Below are positions 17,076-28,975 of a stretch of DNA of 64,000 nucleotides, piece by piece. Under the pieces are notes generated by a model. The model did no database searches, was not told the DNA's origin, and saw nothing but the letters and a program-made list of their open reading frames with translations. This DNA is from Ancylobacter lacus (lineage in GTDB: Bacteria > Pseudomonadota > Alphaproteobacteria > Rhizobiales > Xanthobacteraceae). The stretch is from positions 62,001-126,000 of the forward strand of contig NZ_JAHBGE010000008.1 of assembly GCF_018390635.1 (NCBI RefSeq), written 5' to 3'. Each line of letters begins with the position of its first letter. Position 1 is the stretch's first letter. A program made the translations under genes and the position numbers.

Positions 17076-18566
<1,491 letters not shown>

Positions 18567-18670
18567 GGATTCCGTTTCCTCCGTTCGCGACTGTGTCGAC
18601 GCTTTTGCGCCACCATTCCTCATCCGCCGGGGTGGAGGCCGTCAAGCCGCCTTCCGCTGGGGGTGGCGCG

Positions 18671-19654
18671 TCAGAGCCCCAGGGCTGTCAGGAGATCACG
18701 GAGGCGTTCCGTCTCGGCCTGCACGTAGACCTCGAACGGCTCGCCGCCGAGATAGGCGCTGATCCAGTTGTACTGGTACAGCTTCGATCTCCAGGTCAGG
18801 GTTGAGACCATGCGGTCGGTCATTCCCAACAGGGCCTGATAGCCGCTCTGGCTGATGCCGGGCGAGGCGAAGAGGCCGCACCAATTGGGTGTCCGGCAGT
18901 CGACGCCGTATTCAAACAGCGTAGGCACGTTCAGCCCGGGCAGCCGCTGGGGCGCCGCAACCGCGAGGGCGCGCAGCAGGCCGGAGCCGAGATACGGCAC
19001 CAGGTCGCTCAGATTGATGACGCCGCATTCCACCTGGCCCGCCAGGACCGCCTTCAGGCCTGCCGCCCCGGTGACGCTCGGGCGATAGGAAACGGCGTTC
19101 GCCGGCAGGTTCAGCTGGCGTGCGATCGAAAGCGCGAGGAGGTGGCCGGTGCTGCCGAGTTTCGCACCCGTCCAGCGCACGCTCTCGGGCGCCGCCACCC
19201 AGGCGGCGGCGAGTTCGCTGAAGTTCGCGGCGGGATTGTCGCGGCTCACCACCACGACCCCGTAATCGTTGAGCAGCCGTACCAGCGGTCGCGTCGAGGA
19301 CAGGTAGATGGCGGCGTGCCGGTAGAGCAGCGTGCCGATGATCGCACCGCTGGCTATCAGCACCGTTGTCGAAGGGTCTGTCCGCGGAGAGAGCAGCTTC
19401 GAAACCGCGTCGCTCGCTTCCCCGCTGGCGGTGAGCTCGATCCTGGCGTCGATCCCTGCTTCCCCGAGGCAGTCCGCCAGTACGTTGCCCACAAGGTCGA
19501 GCCCGGTACCTCCCAGAGTCGGTACCAGAATGTTGAGCGTCCGGGGCGGGAGGATGGCGGGCGTATGGACCTGTGCGCCCGCGATGGCCGGTGCCCCCAC
19601 CACCAAGGTGGAGAGACATCCGAAGGTAAAATGGCGCCGGTCCGGCCTGCTCAT
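18671..19654 (-). CDS. Orphan Bug/TctC-type periplasmic binding protein
   Basis: 327 residues with an N-terminal signal (R-R-H-F-T-F followed by a hydrophobic core to about residue 26, A-I-A-G-A). A Bug fold follows: L-N-I-L-V-P-T-L-G-G-T-G-L-D near 39-52 replaces the usual P-x-x-x-G-G-x-x-D ligand loop. No TctA or TctB permease gene is adjacent. It shares direction with the GntR gene at 19827-20504 and lies next to the hydroxyproline genes. It may bind a hydroxyproline-related compound or act as an extra receptor for a distant permease; both are inference. Confidence 0.82.
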   Translation of the reverse strand: MSRPDRRHFTFGCLSTLVVGAPAIAGAQVHTPAILPPRTLNILVPTLGGTGLDLVGNVLADCLGEAGIDARIELTASGEASDAVSKLLSPRTDPSTTVLIASGAIIGTLLYRHAAIYLSSTRPLVRLLNDYGVVVVSRDNPAANFSELAAAWVAAPESVRWTGAKLGSTGHLLALSIARQLNLPANAVSYRPSVTGAAGLKAVLAGQVECGVINLSDLVPYLGSGLLRALAVAAPQRLPGLNVPTLFEYGVDCRTPNWCGLFASPGISQSGYQALLGMTDRMVSTLTWRSKLYQYNWISAYLGGEPFEVYVQAETERLRDLLTALGL

Positions 19655-19826: not shown

Positions 19827-20504
19827 TTACGCTCCGACCGGCCGACGCGTCGTCTCCAGAAAGCGCACCAGCGAATCGCACGCTCCCAGAATGTGGGCCC
19901 GGGTCAGTTCCGCGGCCCGCTCGCCGTCCCGGGCAATGCACGCGTCCAGAATCTGCTGGTGCTCCTGCCGGGCGCGGTCCATCCCCGAGGTCAGCACGAG
20001 CTGCGCCCTGAGGTAACGATCCACCCGGTCCAGTGCCGCGCGAATGGTCTGGAGATAATAGGGACGGCGGGCCTCCTCGTAGAGGCGGTAGTGAAACTGG
20101 CGATTCAGATCGCCCCATTTCGCCGAATTGGCCTCCGTCGCAAAGGCTTCGGCAAAGCCGCGCGCCTCTGCGAGGGCATCGTCGGAGATGCGGGCGATCG
20201 ACAGGCGCAGCACTTCCGGCTCGATGAGGGCGCGGAATTCGAACACCTCGCGGATTTCCTCGATCGACAATGAAGCCACAACGGCGCCTCGGTAGCGTTG
20301 CGTCGCGACCAGCCCCTGTTCTTCCAGCCGCGTGAGCGCCTCCCGCACGGGGATGCGGCTGACATTGAACATGCGGGCAATGTGATCCTGACGCAGAACC
20401 TGGCCTTCGCCGATGTCGCCCCGGGCGATGGCCTCGCGCAATGCGTCGAAGATCACGTCCGAAGCGGACGCCATCTGCGCGATGTTGGTCGCATTGATTT
20501 TCAC
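19827..20504 (-). CDS. GntR/FCD transcriptional regulator of the hydroxyproline island
   Basis: 225 residues. A winged helix-turn-helix (about 10-75) carries the signature M-F-N-V-S-R-I-P-V-R-E-A-L-T-R-L-E, and an FCD all-alpha domain (about 85-215) follows. It diverges from the DapA-like gene across 148 bp containing a perfect TTGGATCCAA palindrome. It lies in the same direction as the orphan Bug gene downstream. FCD regulators of this architecture often control amino-acid or sugar-acid catabolism, so regulation of the adjacent hydroxyproline operon and of itself is likely. Confidence 0.9.
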   Translation of the reverse strand: MKINATNIAQMASASDVIFDALREAIARGDIGEGQVLRQDHIARMFNVSRIPVREALTRLEEQGLVATQRYRGAVVASLSIEEIREVFEFRALIEPEVLRLSIARISDDALAEARGFAEAFATEANSAKWGDLNRQFHYRLYEEARRPYYLQTIRAALDRVDRYLRAQLVLTSGMDRARQEHQQILDACIARDGERAAELTRAHILGACDSLVRFLETTRRPVGA

Positions 20505-20530
20505 GAGAACCTCCGCCAGAACGAAATTCG

Positions 20531-20550
20531 ATATTGCAAATTGGATCCAA
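20531..20550. promoter_or_regulatory. Candidate GntR/FCD operator between gntR and the hydroxyproline operon
   Basis: A perfect 10-bp palindrome TTGGATCCAA (20541-20550), read with flanks as ATTGGATCCAAA, lies 36 bp from the gntR start and about 100 bp upstream of the DapA-like start. It resembles the ATTGGATCCAAT operator I recall for the FCD regulator VanR. ATATTGC at 20531-20537 is a second element shared with the Bug promoter. Confidence 0.62.
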
Positions 20551-20652
20551 AAAACACAAGCTCATCCTCAGAGCGCGAGCCACCGCACCATGACCGCCGG
20601 GGCCTCGCCGCGCCACCCGATCGTCGGCGCCCCCGCCGCAAAGGAGAAGACC

Positions 20653-21549
20653 ATGTGGACAGGTGTCCTTCCCGCTGTCACCGCCAAGTTCAAGGAAGAC
20701 GGTAGCCTCGATCACCGCGAGATGGAGCGCTGCTTCGCCTACCAGATCGAGGCCGGCGTCGACGGGCTCATCGTCAATGGCTCGCTCGGCGAGGGCTCCA
20801 TGCTCTCCCATGACGAGCGCATCGCGGTGCTCAAGACCGCGCAATCGGTCGCCGGGAAGAAGCCGGTGCTGATGACGATTGCCGAAGCCGCGACCCGCGA
20901 CGGGGCGGCTCTGGCGGCGCGTGCCGCACGCGAGGGCGCCTCGGGCCTCATGGTCGTGCCCAGCACGATCTACCACACCAATCCCAAGGAGACGGTGGCC
21001 ACCATCCGCGCCGTCACCGAGGCCGGCGACCTGCCGGTCATGATCTATTCCAACCGCGTCGCTTACCGCGTCGACGTCACCGTCGACATCCTCGCCGAGC
21101 TGGCGAGCGACCGGCGGATCTGCGCCATCAAGGAATCGTCCGACGATATCCGCCGCAGCATCGACGTGATGAACGCTTTCGGCGACCGCTTCAACGTGCT
21201 CACCGGCGTCGACAACCTCGCCTACGAGGCGCTGGCGGTCGGCGCTGTGGGCTGGGTGGCTGGCCTCGTGGTGGCCTTCCCCCACGAGACCGTCGCGATC
21301 TACCGGCTCATGAAGGCCCGCCGCTTCGACGAGGCGCTCAGCATCTATCGCTGGTTCCGCCCGCTGCTCGACCTCGACGTGTCGTCCTATCTCGTCCAGA
21401 ACATCAAGACCGTCGAGGCCATGGTGATCGGCACCACCGAGCATGTGCGCGCGCCGCGCCTGCCGCTGGAAGGGGAGCAGCGCGCCAAGGTCGAGAAGAT
21501 CGTGCGGGAAGCCCTCGCCACCCGGCCGACCTTGGCTCTGGCGGCCTGA
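20653..21549 (+). CDS. DapA-family lyase, probable pyrroline-4-hydroxy-2-carboxylate deaminase
   Basis: 298 residues of the dihydrodipicolinate synthase/N-acetylneuraminate lyase family. The Schiff-base lysine is K160 in C-A-I-K-E-S-S and the catalytic-type tyrosine is Y132 in M-I-Y-S-N-R. The family's G-T-T-G-E loop is G-S-L-G-E (43-47), which argues against true DapA. In hydroxyproline catabolism a DapA homologue converts pyrroline-4-hydroxy-2-carboxylate to alpha-ketoglutarate semialdehyde, and the neighbours support that role. AAGGAGAAG precedes the ATG. It is first in a five-gene run. Confidence 0.85.
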   Translation: MWTGVLPAVTAKFKEDGSLDHREMERCFAYQIEAGVDGLIVNGSLGEGSMLSHDERIAVLKTAQSVAGKKPVLMTIAEAATRDGAALAARAAREGASGLMVVPSTIYHTNPKETVATIRAVTEAGDLPVMIYSNRVAYRVDVTVDILAELASDRRICAIKESSDDIRRSIDVMNAFGDRFNVLTGVDNLAYEALAVGAVGWVAGLVVAFPHETVAIYRLMKARRFDEALSIYRWFRPLLDLDVSSYLVQNIKTVEAMVIGTTEHVRAPRLPLEGEQRAKVEKIVREALATRPTLALAA

Positions 21550-21613
21550 GGCCGATGCCGGCCGCCTCCCGGTGGCCGGCGTCCTTTTGGATCGGCTGGC
21601 GTGAGCGTTCGGT

Positions 21614-22852
21614 ATGAGTGACGTGATCGCGGTGGTCGGGGCCGGCATTGTCGGCCTCGCCGTCGCCTGGCATCTCCAGCAGGACGGACACGAGGTCCGG
21701 CTGGTCGAGCGTGGGCCGGTCGCCGAGGGCGCAAGCTACGGCAATGCCGGCGCCTTCGCCTTTTCCGACGTGCTGCCGCTCGCCTCGCCGGGCATCCTGC
21801 GCAAGGCGCCGCGCTGGCTGCTCGATCCGCTGGGGCCACTCTCGATTCCGCCGGCCTATCTCCCGGTCATCACGCCCTGGCTGCTGCGGTTCTGGCGGGC
21901 GAGCCAGCCCGACCGTTTCGCGGCGAGCCTCGCCGCGCAGTGCGAGCTGATGCGGCTGGCCTCCCGCGCCATGGACGCCATGGTGGCGGGCGCCGGGCTT
22001 TCCGGCCGGGTGCGCAGCGACGGCAATCTCCAGCTCTATGAGAGCGAGGCGGAGCTGCGCACCTCGCTGCCGGGCTGGGCGGCGCGCGAGCGCGAGGGCA
22101 TTGCCTTCGAGCATGTGCGCGGTGAACGCCTCGCCGCCCTTCAGCCGGGGCTGGCGCCGCGCTTCGTGGCTGGCACATTCACCCCGCACTGGCAGACGGT
22201 CGACGATCCCTACCGCTTCGCCATGGCGCTGTTCGACGTGGTGATGGCGCGCGGCGCCTCGGTCGAGCGCGGCGACGTCGGACAGATCGAGCAGGGTCTC
22301 TCCGGCGTGCGTGTCCGCATGTCGGATGGGCGCTTCATCGATGCCGACGCGGCGGTCATCGCCGCCGGCGCGTGGTCGCGGCCGCTCGCCGCTGTGCTGG
22401 GCGACGCCATTCCGCTCGAGACCGAGCGCGGTTACAACACCACCCTTCCCACGGATGCGTTCGACCTGCGGCGGCAGCTCACCTTCGGCGGTCACGGCTT
22501 CGTGGTCACGCCGCTGTCGACCGGCATCCGGGTCGGCGGCGCGGTGGAACTCGGCGGCCTGAAGCGTCCGCCCAATTTCGCCCGGTCCAGGGCGATGCTG
22601 GACAAGGCGGCCGCCTTCCTGCCGGGCCTGCTGACCGAGGGTGGCCGGCAGTGGATGGGGTTTCGGCCCTCGCTGCCCGACACTCTGCCGGTCATCGGGC
22701 CGGCGCGCGGTTCCTCCCGGGTGTTCTACGCTTTCGGACATGGCCATTCCGGCCTGACCCAGAGCGCGGCGACCGGCCGCCTGATTGCCGACCTCATCGC
22801 CGGCCGACCGCCTGCCATCGCGCTGGAGCCGTTCCGGCCCGACCGCTTCTGA
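21614..22852 (+). CDS. DadA-like FAD oxidoreductase, probable D-hydroxyproline dehydrogenase
   Basis: 412 residues of the DAO/DadA family. The N-terminal dinucleotide motif V-V-G-A-G-I-V-G-L-A-V-A-W-H-L spans residues 6-20, with an acidic strand end (V-E-R-G). The C-terminal family motif G-H-G-H-S-G-L-T-Q-S-A-A-T-G-R-L precedes the end. The distal segment W-M-G-F-R-P-S-L-P-D-T-L-P-V-I-G is typical of D-amino acid dehydrogenases. Between a DapA-like deaminase and a hydroxyproline epimerase, the likely reaction is oxidation of cis-4-hydroxy-D-proline to pyrroline-4-hydroxy-2-carboxylate. It lies 64 bp after the previous gene. Confidence 0.87.
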   Translation: MSDVIAVVGAGIVGLAVAWHLQQDGHEVRLVERGPVAEGASYGNAGAFAFSDVLPLASPGILRKAPRWLLDPLGPLSIPPAYLPVITPWLLRFWRASQPDRFAASLAAQCELMRLASRAMDAMVAGAGLSGRVRSDGNLQLYESEAELRTSLPGWAAREREGIAFEHVRGERLAALQPGLAPRFVAGTFTPHWQTVDDPYRFAMALFDVVMARGASVERGDVGQIEQGLSGVRVRMSDGRFIDADAAVIAAGAWSRPLAAVLGDAIPLETERGYNTTLPTDAFDLRRQLTFGGHGFVVTPLSTGIRVGGAVELGGLKRPPNFARSRAMLDKAAAFLPGLLTEGGRQWMGFRPSLPDTLPVIGPARGSSRVFYAFGHGHSGLTQSAATGRLIADLIAGRPPAIALEPFRPDRF

Positions 22853-22888
22853 TTTTCCGGCACATCTGCCGACCACGAGGGACACGCC

Positions 22889-23890
22889 ATGGCGCGCCAC
22901 AGCTTCTTCTGCATCGACGGGCATACGTGCGGAAATCCGGTCCGCCTCGTGGCGGGCGGTGGCCCGCAGCTTCAGGGTGCCACCATGATCGAGAAGCGCG
23001 CCCATTTCCTCGCCGAGTTCGACTGGATTCGCCGGGGTCTGATGTTCGAGCCGCGCGGCCACGACATCATGTCCGGCTCCATCCTCTACCCCCCGACCCG
23101 GCCGGATTGCGACGTCGCCATCCTTTTCATCGAGACCTCGGGCTGCCTGCCCATGTGCGGCCATGGCACCATCGGCACCGTGACCATGGCGATCGAGCAC
23201 GGCCTCGTGAACCCGAAGACGCCGGGCACGCTGCGGCTCGATACCCCCGCCGGCCTCGTCGTCGCGCAGTACCGGCAGGAGGGCCAGCATGTGGAGGAAG
23301 TGCGCATCACCAATGTGCCGGCCTTCCTCTATGCCCGTGGCCTCACCGCGGAATGCCCCGGCCTCGGCGAGGTGACGGTGGATATCGCCTATGGCGGGAA
23401 TTTCTACGCCATCGTCGAACCGCAGGCGGCGTTCCGGGACATGGAGGACTTCTCGGCCGGCGACCTTATCCGCATGAGTCCGGCGCTGCGCGCTGCGCTG
23501 AACGCGAAATACGAGGTCGTGCATCCCGAGAAGCCGGAGATTCGCGGGCTTTCCCACATATTGTGGACCGGTGTCGCCCGGCATCCCGAAGCGCATGCCC
23601 GCAACGCGGTGTTCTACGGCGACAAGGCGATCGATCGTTCGCCCTGCGGCACCGGCACCTCTTCGCGGATGGCGCAGCTCGCCGCGCTCGGCCGGCTGAA
23701 GGTGGGTGACGAATTCGTGCATGAGAGCATCATCGGCTCGCTGTTCCGCGGCCGGGTGGAGGCGGCGGCGAAGGTGGGCGAGCGCGACGCGATCATTCCC
23801 TCCATCGGCGGCTGGGCCCGGATGACCGGTTACAACACCATCTTCATCGACGACCGCGATCCCTTCGCCCACGGCTTCATCGTCGCCTGA
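22889..23890 (+). CDS. 4-hydroxyproline 2-epimerase (proline racemase family)
   Basis: 333 residues, the usual length. Both catalytic cysteines are present: C90 in M-C-G-H-G-T-I-G and C253 in D-R-S-P-C-G-T-G-T-S-S. The N-terminal I-D-G-H-T-C-G-N-P-V-R is typical of 4-hydroxyproline epimerases. It interconverts trans-4-hydroxy-L-proline and cis-4-hydroxy-D-proline by a two-base mechanism, the entry step of the pathway. It lies 36 bp after the dehydrogenase gene. Proline racemase activity is less likely given the neighbours. Confidence 0.92.
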   Translation: MARHSFFCIDGHTCGNPVRLVAGGGPQLQGATMIEKRAHFLAEFDWIRRGLMFEPRGHDIMSGSILYPPTRPDCDVAILFIETSGCLPMCGHGTIGTVTMAIEHGLVNPKTPGTLRLDTPAGLVVAQYRQEGQHVEEVRITNVPAFLYARGLTAECPGLGEVTVDIAYGGNFYAIVEPQAAFRDMEDFSAGDLIRMSPALRAALNAKYEVVHPEKPEIRGLSHILWTGVARHPEAHARNAVFYGDKAIDRSPCGTGTSSRMAQLAALGRLKVGDEFVHESIIGSLFRGRVEAAAKVGERDAIIPSIGGWARMTGYNTIFIDDRDPFAHGFIVA

Positions 23891-23923
23891 CCTCGCCATC
23901 CCCTCCTTCCGCAGGAAGACGCC

Positions 23924-25027
23924 ATGAAGATCACCGGCATCAAGGCCTGGCAGGTCGATCTGCCGCTCCGCGAGGGGCGCTACAGCTGGTCGAACGGCAA
24001 TTTCGTCGAGGTGTTCGATTCCACCGTCGTCGCCGTCGAGACCGACGCGGGTATCACCGGCTATGCCGAATGCTGCCCGCTGGGCTCGGCCTACCTGCCC
24101 GCCTACGCGGCGGGAGTGCGCGCCGGCCTTGCCGAGCTCGGGCCGAAGCTGATCGGCCTCGACCCGACCGATCTCCTCGTGCTGAACCGGCACATGGACG
24201 CCGTGCTTCGCGGCCACCCCTATGTGAAGGCGCCCGTCGACATCGCGTGCTGGGACATTCTGGGCAAATCCACCGGGCTGCCGGTCTACAAGCTGCTCGG
24301 CGGCGCGGCGCAGGAGCGCGTCGCGCTCTACCGCGCCATCTCGCAGGAGGCGCCGGAGACGATGGCCCGCAAGATCGCCGGCTACCGGGCGGAGGGCTAC
24401 ACCCGCTTCCAGCTCAAGGTGGGCGGCGACGCCGACACCGACATCGCCCGCATCCGCGAGACCCGGGCGGTGCTCGGGGCGGGCGACGTGCTTGTCGCCG
24501 ACGCCAATACGGGCTGGACCCGGGCCGAGGCGGCGCGGATCGTGGCGGCGGTGGCCGATCTCGACGTCCATATCGAGCAGCCCTGCCCGACCTATGAGGA
24601 ATGCCTCTCGGTCCGGCGGCGCACCGCGCGGCCCTTCGTGCTGGACGAGGTGATCGGCGGGCTCGACACCCTGCTGGCGGCCTTGGCGGACGACGCCATG
24701 GACATCATCAACCTGAAGATCTCCAAGGTCGGCGGACTGACCAAGGCGAGGCTGATGCGTGATGTCTGCGTCGCCACCGGCACCCCGATGACCATCGAGG
24801 ATACCTGGGGTGGCGACATCGTCACGGCGGCGATCGCCCATCTCGCGCGGTCGACGCCCGAGGAGTTCTGCTTCTCCGCCACCGACTTCAACAGCTACGG
24901 CACGGTCGACATCGCCGACGGTGCGCCGCGCCGCGCCGAGGGCTTCATGACGGCGGCGGACGCGCCGGGCCTTGGGGTGGTGCCGCGCTTCGACGTGCTC
25001 GGCTCCCCTGTCCTCACCATCGGCTGA
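23924..25027 (+). CDS. Enolase-superfamily enzyme, probable cis-3-hydroxy-L-proline dehydratase
   Basis: 367 residues of the mandelate racemase/muconate lactonising family. Catalytic lysines fit K165 (R-F-Q-L-K-V-G) and K268 (K-I-S-K-V-G-G-L). Mg2+ ligands fit D193 (A-D-A-N-T-G-W), E218 (I-E-Q-P) and D241 (V-L-D-E). The usual first lysine of the K-x-K motif is Q163. Enolase-superfamily enzymes from hydroxyproline clusters include a cis-3-hydroxy-L-proline dehydratase and a 4-hydroxyproline-betaine epimerase. The following gene favours the dehydratase. AGGAAG precedes the ATG. Confidence 0.8.
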
Positions 25028-25035
25028 GAGCTTCC

Positions 25036-26070
25036 ATGCGCAGCGCACGGGTCATCCATGTCGTCGGCTGCCACGCGGAGGGCGAAGTCGGCGACGTCAT
25101 CGTCGGAGGGGTCGCCCCGCCCCCGGGCGACACGGTGTGGGCGCAGTCGCGCTTCATCGCCGCCGACGGGACGCTGCGGAATCTGGTGCTGCAGGAGCCG
25201 CGCGGCGGGGTGTTTCGCCACGTGAACCTGCTGGTTCCGCCGAAGGACTCCCGCGCCGTGGCGGCCTGGATCATCATGGAGCCGGAAGACACCCCGCCCA
25301 TGTCCGGCTCCAACGCGATCTGCGTGTCGACGGTCCTGCTCGACACCGGCATCGTCCCGATGACCGAGCCGGAGACCCGCATGGTGCTCGAGGCGCCGGG
25401 CGGGCTGATCGAGGTCACGGCCTATTGCCGGAACGGCAAGGCCGAGCGGATCCGCGTGCGCAACCACCCCTCCTTTGCCGACCGGCTCGACGCGCGGCTG
25501 GAGGTCGAGGGGCTGGGCACCCTCACCGTCGATACCGCCTATGGCGGCGACAGCTTCGTCATCGTCGACGCTGCCGCGCTCGGCTTCGCCATCCGGCCCG
25601 ACGAGGCGAAGGACCTCGCCGAGACCGGCATGCGCATCGTGAAGGCGGCGAACGCCCAGCTTGGCTTCCGCCACCCCGAGAACGCCGACTGGAATCACAT
25701 CTCGTTCTGCCAGTTCGCCGCTCCCCTTACGCAGGAAGACGGCGTGGCGTCGGGCGCGAACGCCGTGGCGATCCGCCCCGGCAAGATCGACCGTTCGCCC
25801 ACCGGCACCGGCTGCTCCGCCCGCCTCGCGGTGCTGCACGCCAGGGGCGTGCTGAAGGTCGGCGACGGTTTCATCGGCCGTTCCATCATCGGCTCGCGCT
25901 TCGACTGCCGGATCGAGGCGGAGACCATGCTCGGCGGCCGCCCCGCCATCGTGCCCTCCATCATGGGGCGGGCCTGGATCACCGGTACCTCCCAGCTCAT
26001 GGTCGACCCGGACGATCCCTGGCAGACCGGCTACCGGCTTACCGACACCTGGCCGCTCTGGGAGGGCTGA
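25036..26070 (+). CDS. Proline racemase-family protein, putative trans-3-hydroxy-L-proline dehydratase
   Basis: 344 residues of the proline racemase superfamily. The first catalytic position is Ser (S90 in M-S-G-S-N-A-I-C) and the second is Thr (T256 in R-S-P-T-G-T-G-C). Family knowledge: Cys/Cys enzymes epimerise, while Cys/Thr enzymes dehydrate trans-3-hydroxy-L-proline. A Ser/Thr pair is unusual to me, so the chemistry is uncertain. The N-terminus [10 protein letters not shown] differs from the epimerase at 22889. It begins 8 bp after the enolase-family gene and is the last gene of the operon. A second epimerase with another substrate is the alternative. Confidence 0.72.
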
Positions 26071-26091
26071 GCCCGCGCCGGCGGTCGCGGC

Positions 26092-26529
26092 TCAGCGGGT
26101 GTGATGGCGGCAGGTGCCGTGATCGGCGAGCGTCTCGATGACGCGGCATTCTCCCACCACGCCGTGGGAGCAGCCCTCGACCATGCGCTTGAGCTCCTCG
26201 CGCAGCGCCTCCAGCGCGGCGATGCGTCGCTCGACCTCGGCCAGCCTCTCGCGCGCGAGCGCATCTGCCACCGCGCAGGGCTGGTCGGGGTCGTCCTGCA
26301 GGTGGAGCAGGTTGCGGATGGCATCGACCTCGAAGCCGAGTTCCCGGGCATGGCGGATGAAGGAGAGGCGTCGCATGTCGGCGTCGCTATAGGCGCGGCG
26401 GCCTCCTTCGGTGCGCGGCGGCGCCGGCAGCAGGCCGATCTGCTCGTAATAGCGGATGGTCGGCACCTTCACCCCGCTGATGCGGGCGGCATCGCCGATG
26501 GCGCGCATGTCGGTCGCGGAGGTCATCAT
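26092..26529 (-). CDS. MerR-family regulator, Zn/Cd/Pb-responsive (ZntR/CadR/PbrR-like)
   Basis: 145 residues from the ATG at 26529 (GAGGAG upstream; the next codon is also ATG). An N-terminal MerR helix-turn-helix (V-K-V-P-T-I-R-Y-Y-E-Q-I-G-L-L near 19-33) and wing G-G-R-R-A-Y are followed by a coiled-coil dimerisation helix and a metal-binding end. Candidate ligands are the Cys of D-Q-P-C, then E-G-C-S-H-G-V-V-G-E-C and a C-R-H-H tail. That pattern fits divalent soft-metal sensors. It diverges from the P-type ATPase, with the operator between them. The exact metal is not determined. Confidence 0.92.
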   Translation of the reverse strand: MMTSATDMRAIGDAARISGVKVPTIRYYEQIGLLPAPPRTEGGRRAYSDADMRRLSFIRHARELGFEVDAIRNLLHLQDDPDQPCAVADALARERLAEVERRIAALEALREELKRMVEGCSHGVVGECRVIETLADHGTCRHHTR

Positions 26530-26534
26530 GGGGC

Positions 26535-26565
26535 TTGCTCCTCTAGTCGCTAGAGGATGTAGCCT
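26535..26565 (+). promoter_or_regulatory. MerR-type promoter/operator of the metal ATPase gene
   Basis: A -35-like TTGCTC (26535-26540) and a -10-like TAGCCT (26560-26565) are separated by 19 bp, the long spacer typical of MerR-activated promoters. The spacer holds the palindrome CTCTAG-TCG-CTAGAG (26541-26555), very close to known ZntR/CadR/PbrR operators. The merR ribosome-binding site (26538-26544, minus strand) overlaps the operator, suggesting autoregulation. Confidence 0.88.
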
Positions 26566-26626
26566 TGGCTCAACGTCATGCAAGGGCCGGCGTTGGGAAA
26601 CCTTCCGCCGGCATTCCGGGTGTCCC

Positions 26627-28975
26627 ATGAGCCAGACCGCCGAGAAGCTTCGCTACCGTATCGAGGGCATGGACTGCGCGTCCTGTGCCGCGAAGATCGA
26701 CACCGCCGTCCGTCGCATCGAGGGTGTCGCGGAGGTGTCGGTGTCCGTTGCCGCCGGCACCATGACAGTGCGGCAGGAGGGCGCCGACCTTGCCTTGCTC
26801 GAGCGGCGGGTCACCGGGCTCGGCTATCGCATCGTTCCGCTGCCCGCTCGCGGTGCCGCCGCTGCCGCCCCGGCGCCCGTTTCCGGCGCGGGCCACCCCC
26901 ACGGCCATGACCATGAGCACGACCATGATCATGGTCACGCTCACGGCAGCGGGTCGTGTGGCTGCGGGCACGACCACGATCACGATCACGACCACGGCCA
27001 CGATCACGGCCATCGCCACCCATCCGACCATGGCCGTAAGGCCCTGGCGGCCGGCGGCAATCCCTCGGCCGCAGCGGCCGGCCTTCATGGCCATGAGCAT
27101 GGCTTTGAGGAGGGGCCGTGGTGGCGCACCGGAAAGGCCCGGCTGACGCTGGCCTGCGGGGCGGCGCTGGTGGTGGCCTATGGCATTGGCCGGTTCTGGC
27201 CCGGCGCGGATCTCTACGTCTTCACGGCCGCGATGCTGGTCGGCCTCATCCCGATCGCCCGGCGCGCCTTCGTGGCGGCGCGGCTCGGCACGCCGTTCTC
27301 CATCGAGATGCTGATGACCATTGCGGCCGCCGGTGCCGTGGCCATCGGCGCGGGGGAAGAGGGCGCGATGGTGGTCTTCCTCTTCCTCGTCGGCGAATTG
27401 CTGGAGGGTGTCGCCGCCGGCCGGGCCCGCGCCAGCATCCGCTCGCTGGCCGCGCTGGTGCCGAAGACGGCGCGGCTGGTCGAAAGCGGAGCCACCCGCG
27501 AGATTCCGGCCGAGGCGGTCGCGGTCGGCTCGCTGCTGCTGGTGCGCCCGGGCGAGCGCGTCCCTGCCGATGGCGAGGTCGTCGAGGGTGCGAGCGACGT
27601 CAACGAGGCGCCGGTCACCGGCGAGAGCCTGCCGGTGCGGCGTGGGCCGGGCGATCCGGTCTTCGCCGGCACCGTGAACGGCGAGGCTGCGCTCACCATC
27701 CGCGCCACCACCGCGGCCTCCGACAACACCATCGCCCGCGTCGTCCGGCTGGTGGAGGAGGCGCAGGAGAGCAAGGCGCCGACCGAGCGCTTCATCGACC
27801 GCTTTTCCCGCTGGTACACCCCGTTCGTGGTGGTGCTGGCCGCGCTCGTGGCGCTTCTCCCGCCGCTACTGGCGGGGGCGGGCTGGGATGAATGGATCTA
27901 TAAGGGCCTTGCCATCCTGCTGATCGGCTGCCCCTGCGCGCTGGTGATCTCGACGCCGGCGGCGGTGGCGGCGGCGCTCGCCTCCGGCGCCCGCAGCGGC
28001 CTGCTCATCAAGGGCGGCGCGGTGCTGGAGCGGCTGCGCAGCGTCTCCGCGGTGTGCTTCGACAAGACCGGAACGCTCACCCTCGGCAAGCCGGTGGTGA
28101 CCGATATCCTCGGGCTCGACGCGGCGGAGGACGAGGTGCTCCGGCTCTGCGCCGCACTGGAGGCGGGCTCCACCCATCCGCTGGCGCAGGCGATCCTCGT
28201 CCGGGCGGCGGCGGGCGGAGTGGCCGTGCCGCCGGTGCGCGAGGCGGCCGCGATCAGCGGCGAGGGTGTCGCCGGGGTGGTGGAAGGCCGCGCGCTCTTT
28301 CTCGGCTCACCGCGCGCCGCCGCTGCCCGCGCACCCCTGCCCGCCCGGCTGGAGGAGGCCATTGCCAGCCTCAACGGCGCGGGCAAGAGCGTCGCCGTGC
28401 TGGTCGCGGACGGGCGCACCCTTGGGGCGGTGGCGATCCGCGACGAGCCGCGGCCCGACGCGGCAGCGGCGCTGAAGCGCCTTGCCGCCCGCGGCATCCG
28501 CACCCTCATGCTCACCGGCGACAACCGGCGCACGGCGGAGGCGGTGGGCGGCGATCTCGGCATCGAGGTCCGCGCCGAGCTGATGCCGGCGGACAAGAGC
28601 CGCATCGTCCGGGAACTGCAGGCGCAGGGGCTGGTCGTGGCGAAGGTCGGCGATGGCATCAACGACGCGCCGGCGCTGGCGGCGGCCGATGTCGGGATCG
28701 CCATGGGCGGGGGAACCGACGTGGCGCTGGAAACCGCCGACGCCGCCATCCTGCACGGCCGCCTCGCCGATATCGAGGCAATGGTCGCGCTCTCCGCCCG
28801 CACCATGGCGAACATCCGCCAGAACATCGCGCTGGCGCTGGGGCTGAAGGCGGTGTTCCTCGTCACCACCATTCTGGGCATCACCGGCCTGTGGCCGGCG
28901 ATCCTGGCCGATACCGGGGCGACGGTGCTGGTGACCGCCAACGCGCTGCGGCTGCTGGGCCGGCGCGCCGACTGA
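26627..28975 (+). CDS. Zn/Cd/Pb-exporting P1B-type ATPase with His-rich N-terminus (ZntA/CadA-like)
   Basis: 782 residues. The heavy-metal domain carries G-M-D-C-A-S-C (14-20). A linker at about 90-135 is dominated by His-Asp and His-Gly dipeptides, with a Cys-Gly-Cys in the middle. Then come the membrane helices, the C435-P-C437 transmembrane metal site and the phosphorylation motif D479-K-T-G-T. It ends with G-D-G-I-N-D-A-P-A-L. CPC with a His-rich linker indicates Zn/Cd/Pb (P1B-2) export from the cytoplasm. The ATG at 26627 is chosen because the heavy-metal domain starts directly after it. Expression is probably driven by the MerR operator upstream. Confidence 0.95.
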   Translation: MSQTAEKLRYRIEGMDCASCAAKIDTAVRRIEGVAEVSVSVAAGTMTVRQEGADLALLERRVTGLGYRIVPLPARGAAAAAPAPVSGAGHPHGHDHEHDHDHGHAHGSGSCGCGHDHDHDHDHGHDHGHRHPSDHGRKALAAGGNPSAAAAGLHGHEHGFEEGPWWRTGKARLTLACGAALVVAYGIGRFWPGADLYVFTAAMLVGLIPIARRAFVAARLGTPFSIEMLMTIAAAGAVAIGAGEEGAMVVFLFLVGELLEGVAAGRARASIRSLAALVPKTARLVESGATREIPAEAVAVGSLLLVRPGERVPADGEVVEGASDVNEAPVTGESLPVRRGPGDPVFAGTVNGEAALTIRATTAASDNTIARVVRLVEEAQESKAPTERFIDRFSRWYTPFVVVLAALVALLPPLLAGAGWDEWIYKGLAILLIGCPCALVISTPAAVAAALASGARSGLLIKGGAVLERLRSVSAVCFDKTGTLTLGKPVVTDILGLDAAEDEVLRLCAALEAGSTHPLAQAILVRAAAGGVAVPPVREAAAISGEGVAGVVEGRALFLGSPRAAAARAPLPARLEEAIASLNGAGKSVAVLVADGRTLGAVAIRDEPRPDAAAALKRLAARGIRTLMLTGDNRRTAEAVGGDLGIEVRAELMPADKSRIVRELQAQGLVVAKVGDGINDAPALAAADVGIAMGGGTDVALETADAAILHGRLADIEAMVALSARTMANIRQNIALALGLKAVFLVTTILGITGLWPAILADTGATVLVTANALRLLGRRAD

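Follow-up and report, generated by a model that had tools for sequence, protein, structure and literature searches.

A predicted hydroxyproline-catabolism island in Ancylobacter lacus, its conservation in the genus and a candidate operator for its regulator

Gene clusters for L-hydroxyproline comprising genes designated LhpA-L are described by Watanabe et al. (2016; PMC5144071), and the same source ascribes both dehydratase and epimerase activity to LhpJ of Labrenzia aggregata, an organism that grows on trans-4-, cis-4-, trans-3- and cis-3-hydroxyproline (Zhao et al., 2014; PMC4113996). According to the S. novella genome paper, hydroxy-L-proline also supports growth of Starkeya novella, whose LhpJ gene is reportedly induced by cis-3- and trans-4-hydroxyproline (second-hand, via PMC5144071). 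HypR, a GntR-family repressor encoded beside hyp genes and autoregulated in many genomes, is described for Sinorhizobium, and its regulons were reconstructed in Proteobacteria (PMC5343134). Here we analyzed a 64,000-nt stretch of Ancylobacter lacus DNA (the whole of which we call the window) in which five consecutive genes very probably constitute an inducible hydroxyproline-catabolism island. This kind of island, including the enolase gene for the cis-3 isomer, was already published in 2014-2016.

The initial annotation had placed five same-strand genes at 20653-26070 with gaps of 8-64 bp, and the coordinates of the open frames match exactly, the individual gaps being 64, 36, 33 and 8 bp (Table 1). 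Its assignment of these genes to hydroxyproline pathways is supported by curated family models, by catalytic residues and by the precedent of the congener S. novella. Through the first three genes, trans-4-hydroxy-L-proline would be converted to cis-4-hydroxy-D-proline by the epimerase, oxidized to pyrroline-4-hydroxy-2-carboxylate and then deaminated to alpha-ketoglutarate semialdehyde (KGSA), from which an unlinked aldehyde dehydrogenase would produce alpha-ketoglutarate. The genes, their families, their catalytic residues, their conservation and the presence of a reductase and of PutA in the genome are established directly; the activities of all island enzymes, their regulation and the identities of the KGSA dehydrogenase and the transporter are what we infer.

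Table 1. Positions of the island genes and associated features (window coordinates unless another locus is named)
Feature	Position	Strand	Basis or remark
DHDPS-family gene, predicted pyrroline-4-hydroxy-2-carboxylate deaminase (LhpC/HypD role)	20653-21549	+	PF00701; role from context
DadA-like FAD enzyme, predicted cis-4-hydroxy-D-proline dehydrogenase (single-subunit, HypO role)	21614-22852	+	PF01266; role from context
4-hydroxyproline 2-epimerase (LhpA/4HypE)	22889-23890	+	NF010578; C90/C253
Enolase-superfamily gene, predicted cis-3-hydroxyproline dehydratase (c3D)	23924-25027	+	NF043002; catalytic residues
Second proline-racemase homologue, predicted trans-3-hydroxyproline dehydratase (t3D)	25036-26070	+	NF047722; S90/T256
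GntR/FCD-family regulator, HypR-like, GTG start, divergent from island	19827-20504	-	PF00392, PF07729
Candidate regulator operator, GATATTG-N4-TTGGATCCAA block	20530-20553 (palindrome 20541-20550)	.	conservation
G+C-rich hairpin (13 bp), then CTTTTGGATC	21554-21583	+	gap between first two island genes
Second island	L005:856-12305 (G000:C11, ~36.9-48.3 kb)		largely kept in 12/13 other genus genomes bearing its cobalamin-binding protein

The closest described cluster is found in the same genus. Starkeya novella DSM 506, which the current taxonomy lists under the name Ancylobacter novellus, bears the same island (locus L061), with the order GntR / DapA / DadA / HypE / c3D / t3D at 74-88% protein identity and with the same candidate operator sequence, TTGGATCCAA. 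The window island is thus orthologous to a cluster that has already been described. The two differ in that S. novella has an amino-acid ABC transporter between the regulator and the first enzyme gene and, following the last enzyme gene, one of the Ldh_2 family, whereas the window has neither. The Labrenzia/Roseibium cluster with LhpJ (PMC5144071; Roseibium porphyridii plasmid) likewise combines the five enzyme families with a GntR gene, and the Roseibium plasmid shares with the window a Ser/Thr second racemase and a copy of TTGGATCCAA between the GntR gene and the first enzyme gene. Its inner order (DapA-racemase-FAD enzyme-c3D-racemase) is, however, unlike that of the window, and its Cys/Cys racemase is more distant from the window epimerase, with a gapped alignment.

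The host is a member of Ancylobacter. A search of 61 genomes for the enolase gene (E 1e-90) found it in 23 of the 30 genus genomes (own genome included), in 0/7 that represent other genera of the same family and in 3/24 from other families of the order. We fetched the loci of 18 of the 22 enolase-positive congeners and found that the order seen in S. novella recurs, with 73-91% protein identity, and is complete in 16/18; L060 lacks the DadA-like gene and L047 the last racemase. Because the gene order recurs across the 18 congener loci, the island is not a chance assembly. Relatives of the enolase gene were also found on plasmids (5 among 72,556 plasmid records, E 1e-100), and the two of these five loci that were examined contain all five enzyme families, arranged in a different inner order. 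The published cluster is thus general in the genus, and Ancylobacter species are apparently equipped for three hydroxyproline isomers.

The amino-acid ABC transporter lies between the regulator and the first enzyme gene in 15/18 congeners; the exceptions are L047, L048 and L053, and the window lacks it as well. In 11/18 congener loci there is an Ldh_2-family gene, directly 3′ of the last racemase in four and further off, with a TRAP transporter, in seven. The Ldh_2 superfamily includes one known type of pyrroline-2-carboxylate reductase (PMC4113996); of the three congener Ldh_2 proteins that were scanned, none reached the curated cut-off of any model with a named function. Beyond the last racemase, L050, L052, L056, L057, L059, L060 and L063 have a TRAP transporter, a second GntR gene and an Ldh_2-family gene, and in six of these seven (not L059) the TRAP/second-GntR region contains an extra TGGATCCA core.

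Enzymes of the island

All five island proteins exceed Pfam cut-offs in a profile scan. Curated family models (NCBIfam) were judged by each model's own bit-score cut-off, and these cut-offs were reached by 3/5 island enzymes. The epimerase scores 466.5 bits with PF05544 and 609.4 with the equivalog model NF010578 (cut-off 376), and the catalytic Cys/Cys pair C90/C253 claimed for it by the initial annotation was located in the protein. The DapA-like protein matches PF00701 with 165.7 bits, has K160 and Y132 by residue position, falls below the dapA cut-off (135.6 vs 206.15) and has as its best Protein Data Bank (PDB) match an uncharacterised protein, 3eb2. The DadA-like protein matches PF01266 with 210.1 bits and falls below the cut-off for D-amino acid dehydrogenase (NF001933, 208.7 vs 383). 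Scores this far below the dapA and D-amino acid dehydrogenase cut-offs are as expected of a deaminase and a hydroxyproline dehydrogenase, roles that here are only a fit to family and context. The hairpin within the 64-bp gap between these two genes has a terminator-like form; with two terminator-like sites found in 20300-26700 against a shuffle mean of 1.9, it is not significant by count.

The initial annotation further proposed that the last two genes dehydrate cis- and trans-3-hydroxy-L-proline to pyrroline-2-carboxylate. Both parts find support in family models. The enolase-superfamily protein scores 146.0/51.6 bits with MR_MLE_C/N and 734.9 with NF043002 (cut-off 500), and its best PDB sequence is 4mgg_A (626.7 bits). 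By motif position it has K165, D193, E218, D241 and K265, within motifs identical in 4mgg_A, and this set agrees with the ligands and bases reported for LhpJ (two Asp, one Glu and two Lys). A genome search for an AcnX-type cis-3-hydroxyproline dehydratase (LhpI) found none.

The last gene encodes a second proline-racemase homologue, with 446.9 bits for PF05544, 647.9 for NF047722 (cut-off 550) and an S90/T256 dyad, as in B9K4G4. It is likely that this protein dehydrates trans-3-hydroxyproline, and no more than likely because the Ser90/Thr256 group (cluster 3) is functionally mixed: as described by Zhao et al. (2014; PMC4113996), the group is heterogeneous and partly promiscuous, with dehydratase and 3-/4-hydroxyproline epimerase activities, D0B556 having epimerised 3-hydroxyproline and B9K4G4 having dehydrated it. 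The window racemase shares the dyad and its numbering with cluster 3, and its closest PDB sequences include 4k7g and 4k8l. We therefore regard an epimerase as a possible, if improbable, identity for the last gene, given this heterogeneity and the near-equal scores with 4k8l (586 bits), 1tm0 (565.9) and the dehydratase 4k7g (564.5).

Regulator and candidate operator

The divergent gene next to the island, which like the palindrome beside it was absent from the initial annotation, encodes a protein with 56.9 bits for PF00392 and 85.5 for PF07729, and its position and orientation are kept in 18/18 congener loci at 76-83% identity. We call it HypR-like on the basis of its family and its divergent position beside hyp genes; in the HypR regulons described in PMC5343134 and PMC6608401, too, a GntR-family repressor adjoins hyp genes.

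The palindrome TTGGATCCAA is separated by 36 bp from the start codon of the regulator and by 102 bp from the first gene of the island. It occurs once in the window, against a shuffle mean of 0.04, and nowhere else in the 4.63 Mb genome, where the backwards control gave 0. We surveyed 23 sequences (the window, the loci of 20 relatives and two plasmid loci) and found exactly one TTGGATCCAA in 20 of them, namely the window, 18/18 congener loci and the Roseibium plasmid L124; it was absent from the order relatives L065 and L066 and from the Ruegeria plasmid L125. In all 20 sequences that bear it, the palindrome sits in the gap that separates the GntR gene from the next one. We infer that TTGGATCCAA is a candidate operator of the GntR regulator: acting as a HypR-type repressor, the divergent GntR/FCD protein would probably bind it and release it when a hydroxyproline is present. 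The site is unlike that given for Streptomyces HypR, CTNTGC(A/C)ATGTCAC (PMC6608401). The matches listed in a full-text literature search for TTGGATCCAA were unrelated, but we do not claim novelty for the site. As a small addition to the published cluster, a precisely located candidate operator could be useful.

Unlinked enzymes and alternative readings

Two expected enzymes, KGSA dehydrogenase and pyrroline-2-carboxylate reductase, had been noted as missing from the island, and neither gene is present there. The genome search that had been proposed for them was successful for the reductase and gave only a candidate for the KGSA dehydrogenase. The reductase lies outside the island, on contig C63 (NF004793, 426.5 vs cut-off 322), and the PutA that would serve L-proline is on C71 (2083.6 vs cut-off 1750). 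Two other genes were considered as reductases and rejected: the OCD gene of contig C8 encodes an ornithine cyclodeaminase (NF005762, 561.5 vs 350) and adjoins an apparent arginase gene, as read by eye, and an Ldh_2 gene on C54 is under every curated cut-off.

For KGSA dehydrogenase, a search with NF042993 gave 17 places in the genome, none above the cut-off, and the window island contains no such gene. The best of them, an aldehyde dehydrogenase gene on C67, adjoins an aminotransferase and a GntR gene (by eye) and was not accepted, because close orthologues (92-93%) occur in only 2/29 other genus genomes. The candidate that we retain is a 533-residue aldehyde dehydrogenase on C54, whose closest PDB sequences are 3v4c and 1eyy and which matched no NCBIfam model at 1e-30. 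It lies 3′ of dehydratase-family and DHDPS-family genes, a layout that fits a sugar-acid route via KGSA, and we take it to resemble the KGSA dehydrogenase type named for hydroxyproline. The aldehyde dehydrogenase gene nearer the island, at 17076-18623 (-), is of the methylmalonate-semialdehyde type (TIGR01722, 697.7 vs 448.5); the three congener loci without the ABC transporter (L047, L048 and L053) likewise have such a gene close to their regulator.

The scattered location of these enzymes bears on how the island should be read. One alternative is that its main task concerns trans-4-hydroxyproline alone, with the 3-hydroxyproline enzymes contributing side activities or acting on something else. 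In its favour, the reductase and the KGSA dehydrogenase are unlinked to the island, and the reductase is present regardless of the island, in 29/30 genus genomes (E 1e-70). This interpretation is nevertheless improbable to us, since the two 3-hydroxyproline genes are kept together in 17/18 congener loci and S. novella reportedly responds to cis-3-hydroxyproline (second-hand); the Ldh_2-family gene near the island in 11/18 congeners, within the stretch that was fetched, also speaks against it, yet falls below the curated reductase cut-offs. Degradation of some other proline-like compound, as may be the case for a second racemase island on contig C11, where each of the first three enzymes has a paralogue (61.6%, 45.8% and 43.6% identity) so that family alone leaves the substrate unfixed, is very improbable, given that the window copy includes a cis-3-hydroxyproline dehydratase and that the S. 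novella ortholog set is tied to hydroxyproline.

Several observations weigh against an inducible island serving hydroxyproline catabolism. A whole-genome search found no exact copy of the operator at the reductase or at the KGSA dehydrogenase candidates. Among those candidates, the C67 gene misses its cut-off (473.4 vs 770), and the C54 gene is present in 19/30 genus genomes, 13/23 with the island and 6/7 without it, and thus does not track with the island. The NCBIfam scan gave no curated model that assigns the first two genes their proposed role, and the Ser/Thr group of the last gene is, as described above, of mixed function. Finally, the window lacks the ABC transporter of the congeners, and no protein in its genome comes closer than 30% to the binding protein of that transporter.

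The ABC and TRAP genes of the congeners had no match anywhere in the window (E 1e-30). A lone TctC-like binding protein gene, at 18671-19654 (-), adjoins the regulator; its product had no match at E 1e-30 in the loci of 20 relatives and the two plasmid loci. As a species without the ABC transporter and the Ldh_2-family gene of its congeners, A. lacus offers a natural test of which unlinked genes can serve the pathway.

A second hydroxyproline-type island on contig C11

Two further racemase genes of the same genome are on contig C11, unlinked to the window island. The cluster around them comprises genes for a branched-chain-type binding protein, a GntR regulator, a cupin, a short-chain dehydrogenase/reductase, a DadA-like enzyme and a 4-hydroxyproline epimerase (569.8 vs cut-off 376), together with genes for a NIPSNAP protein, a 594-residue cobalamin-binding protein, a DapA-like protein, a Ser/Cys racemase and an alpha/beta-hydrolase. 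The Ser86/Cys252 racemase scores 415.6, below the cut-off of 550 of the dehydratase model. In the cobalamin-binding protein, only the C-terminal part matches a known domain (PF02310), and the 450-residue N-terminal part has no Pfam match.

The cobalamin-binding protein is found in 14/30 genus genomes and in 3/24 genomes of other families of the order. The C11 set is nearly whole in 12/13 other genus genomes, with only part of it in L119; L112 is without the DapA-like gene, and the hydrolase gene has moved in L111 and L113. A scan of the collection gave 215 relatives of the cobalamin-binding protein, of which 80 were kept; the fetched flanks of these 80 contain a cupin gene in 46 cases, a hydrolase in 40, an epimerase in 15 and a DapA-like gene in 14. 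The cobalamin-binding protein is therefore not generally tied to hydroxyproline genes. In the literature library searched, no paper was found that brings together hydroxyproline, proline racemase and a cobalamin-dependent mutase.

With its uncharacterised cobalamin-binding protein, the C11 island is more curious than the window island. We tentatively suggest that the genus has two parallel hydroxyproline-type islands and that the one on C11 may metabolize a hydroxyproline-derived compound by a route that is undescribed and possibly dependent on B12. In a Phyllobacterium zundukense plasmid (L211:625-9662), a relative of the cobalamin-binding protein adjoins a gene annotated as pyrroline-5-carboxylate reductase and a set comprising a GntR gene, an amino-acid ABC transporter, dapA, an FAD oxidoreductase and an aldehyde dehydrogenase.

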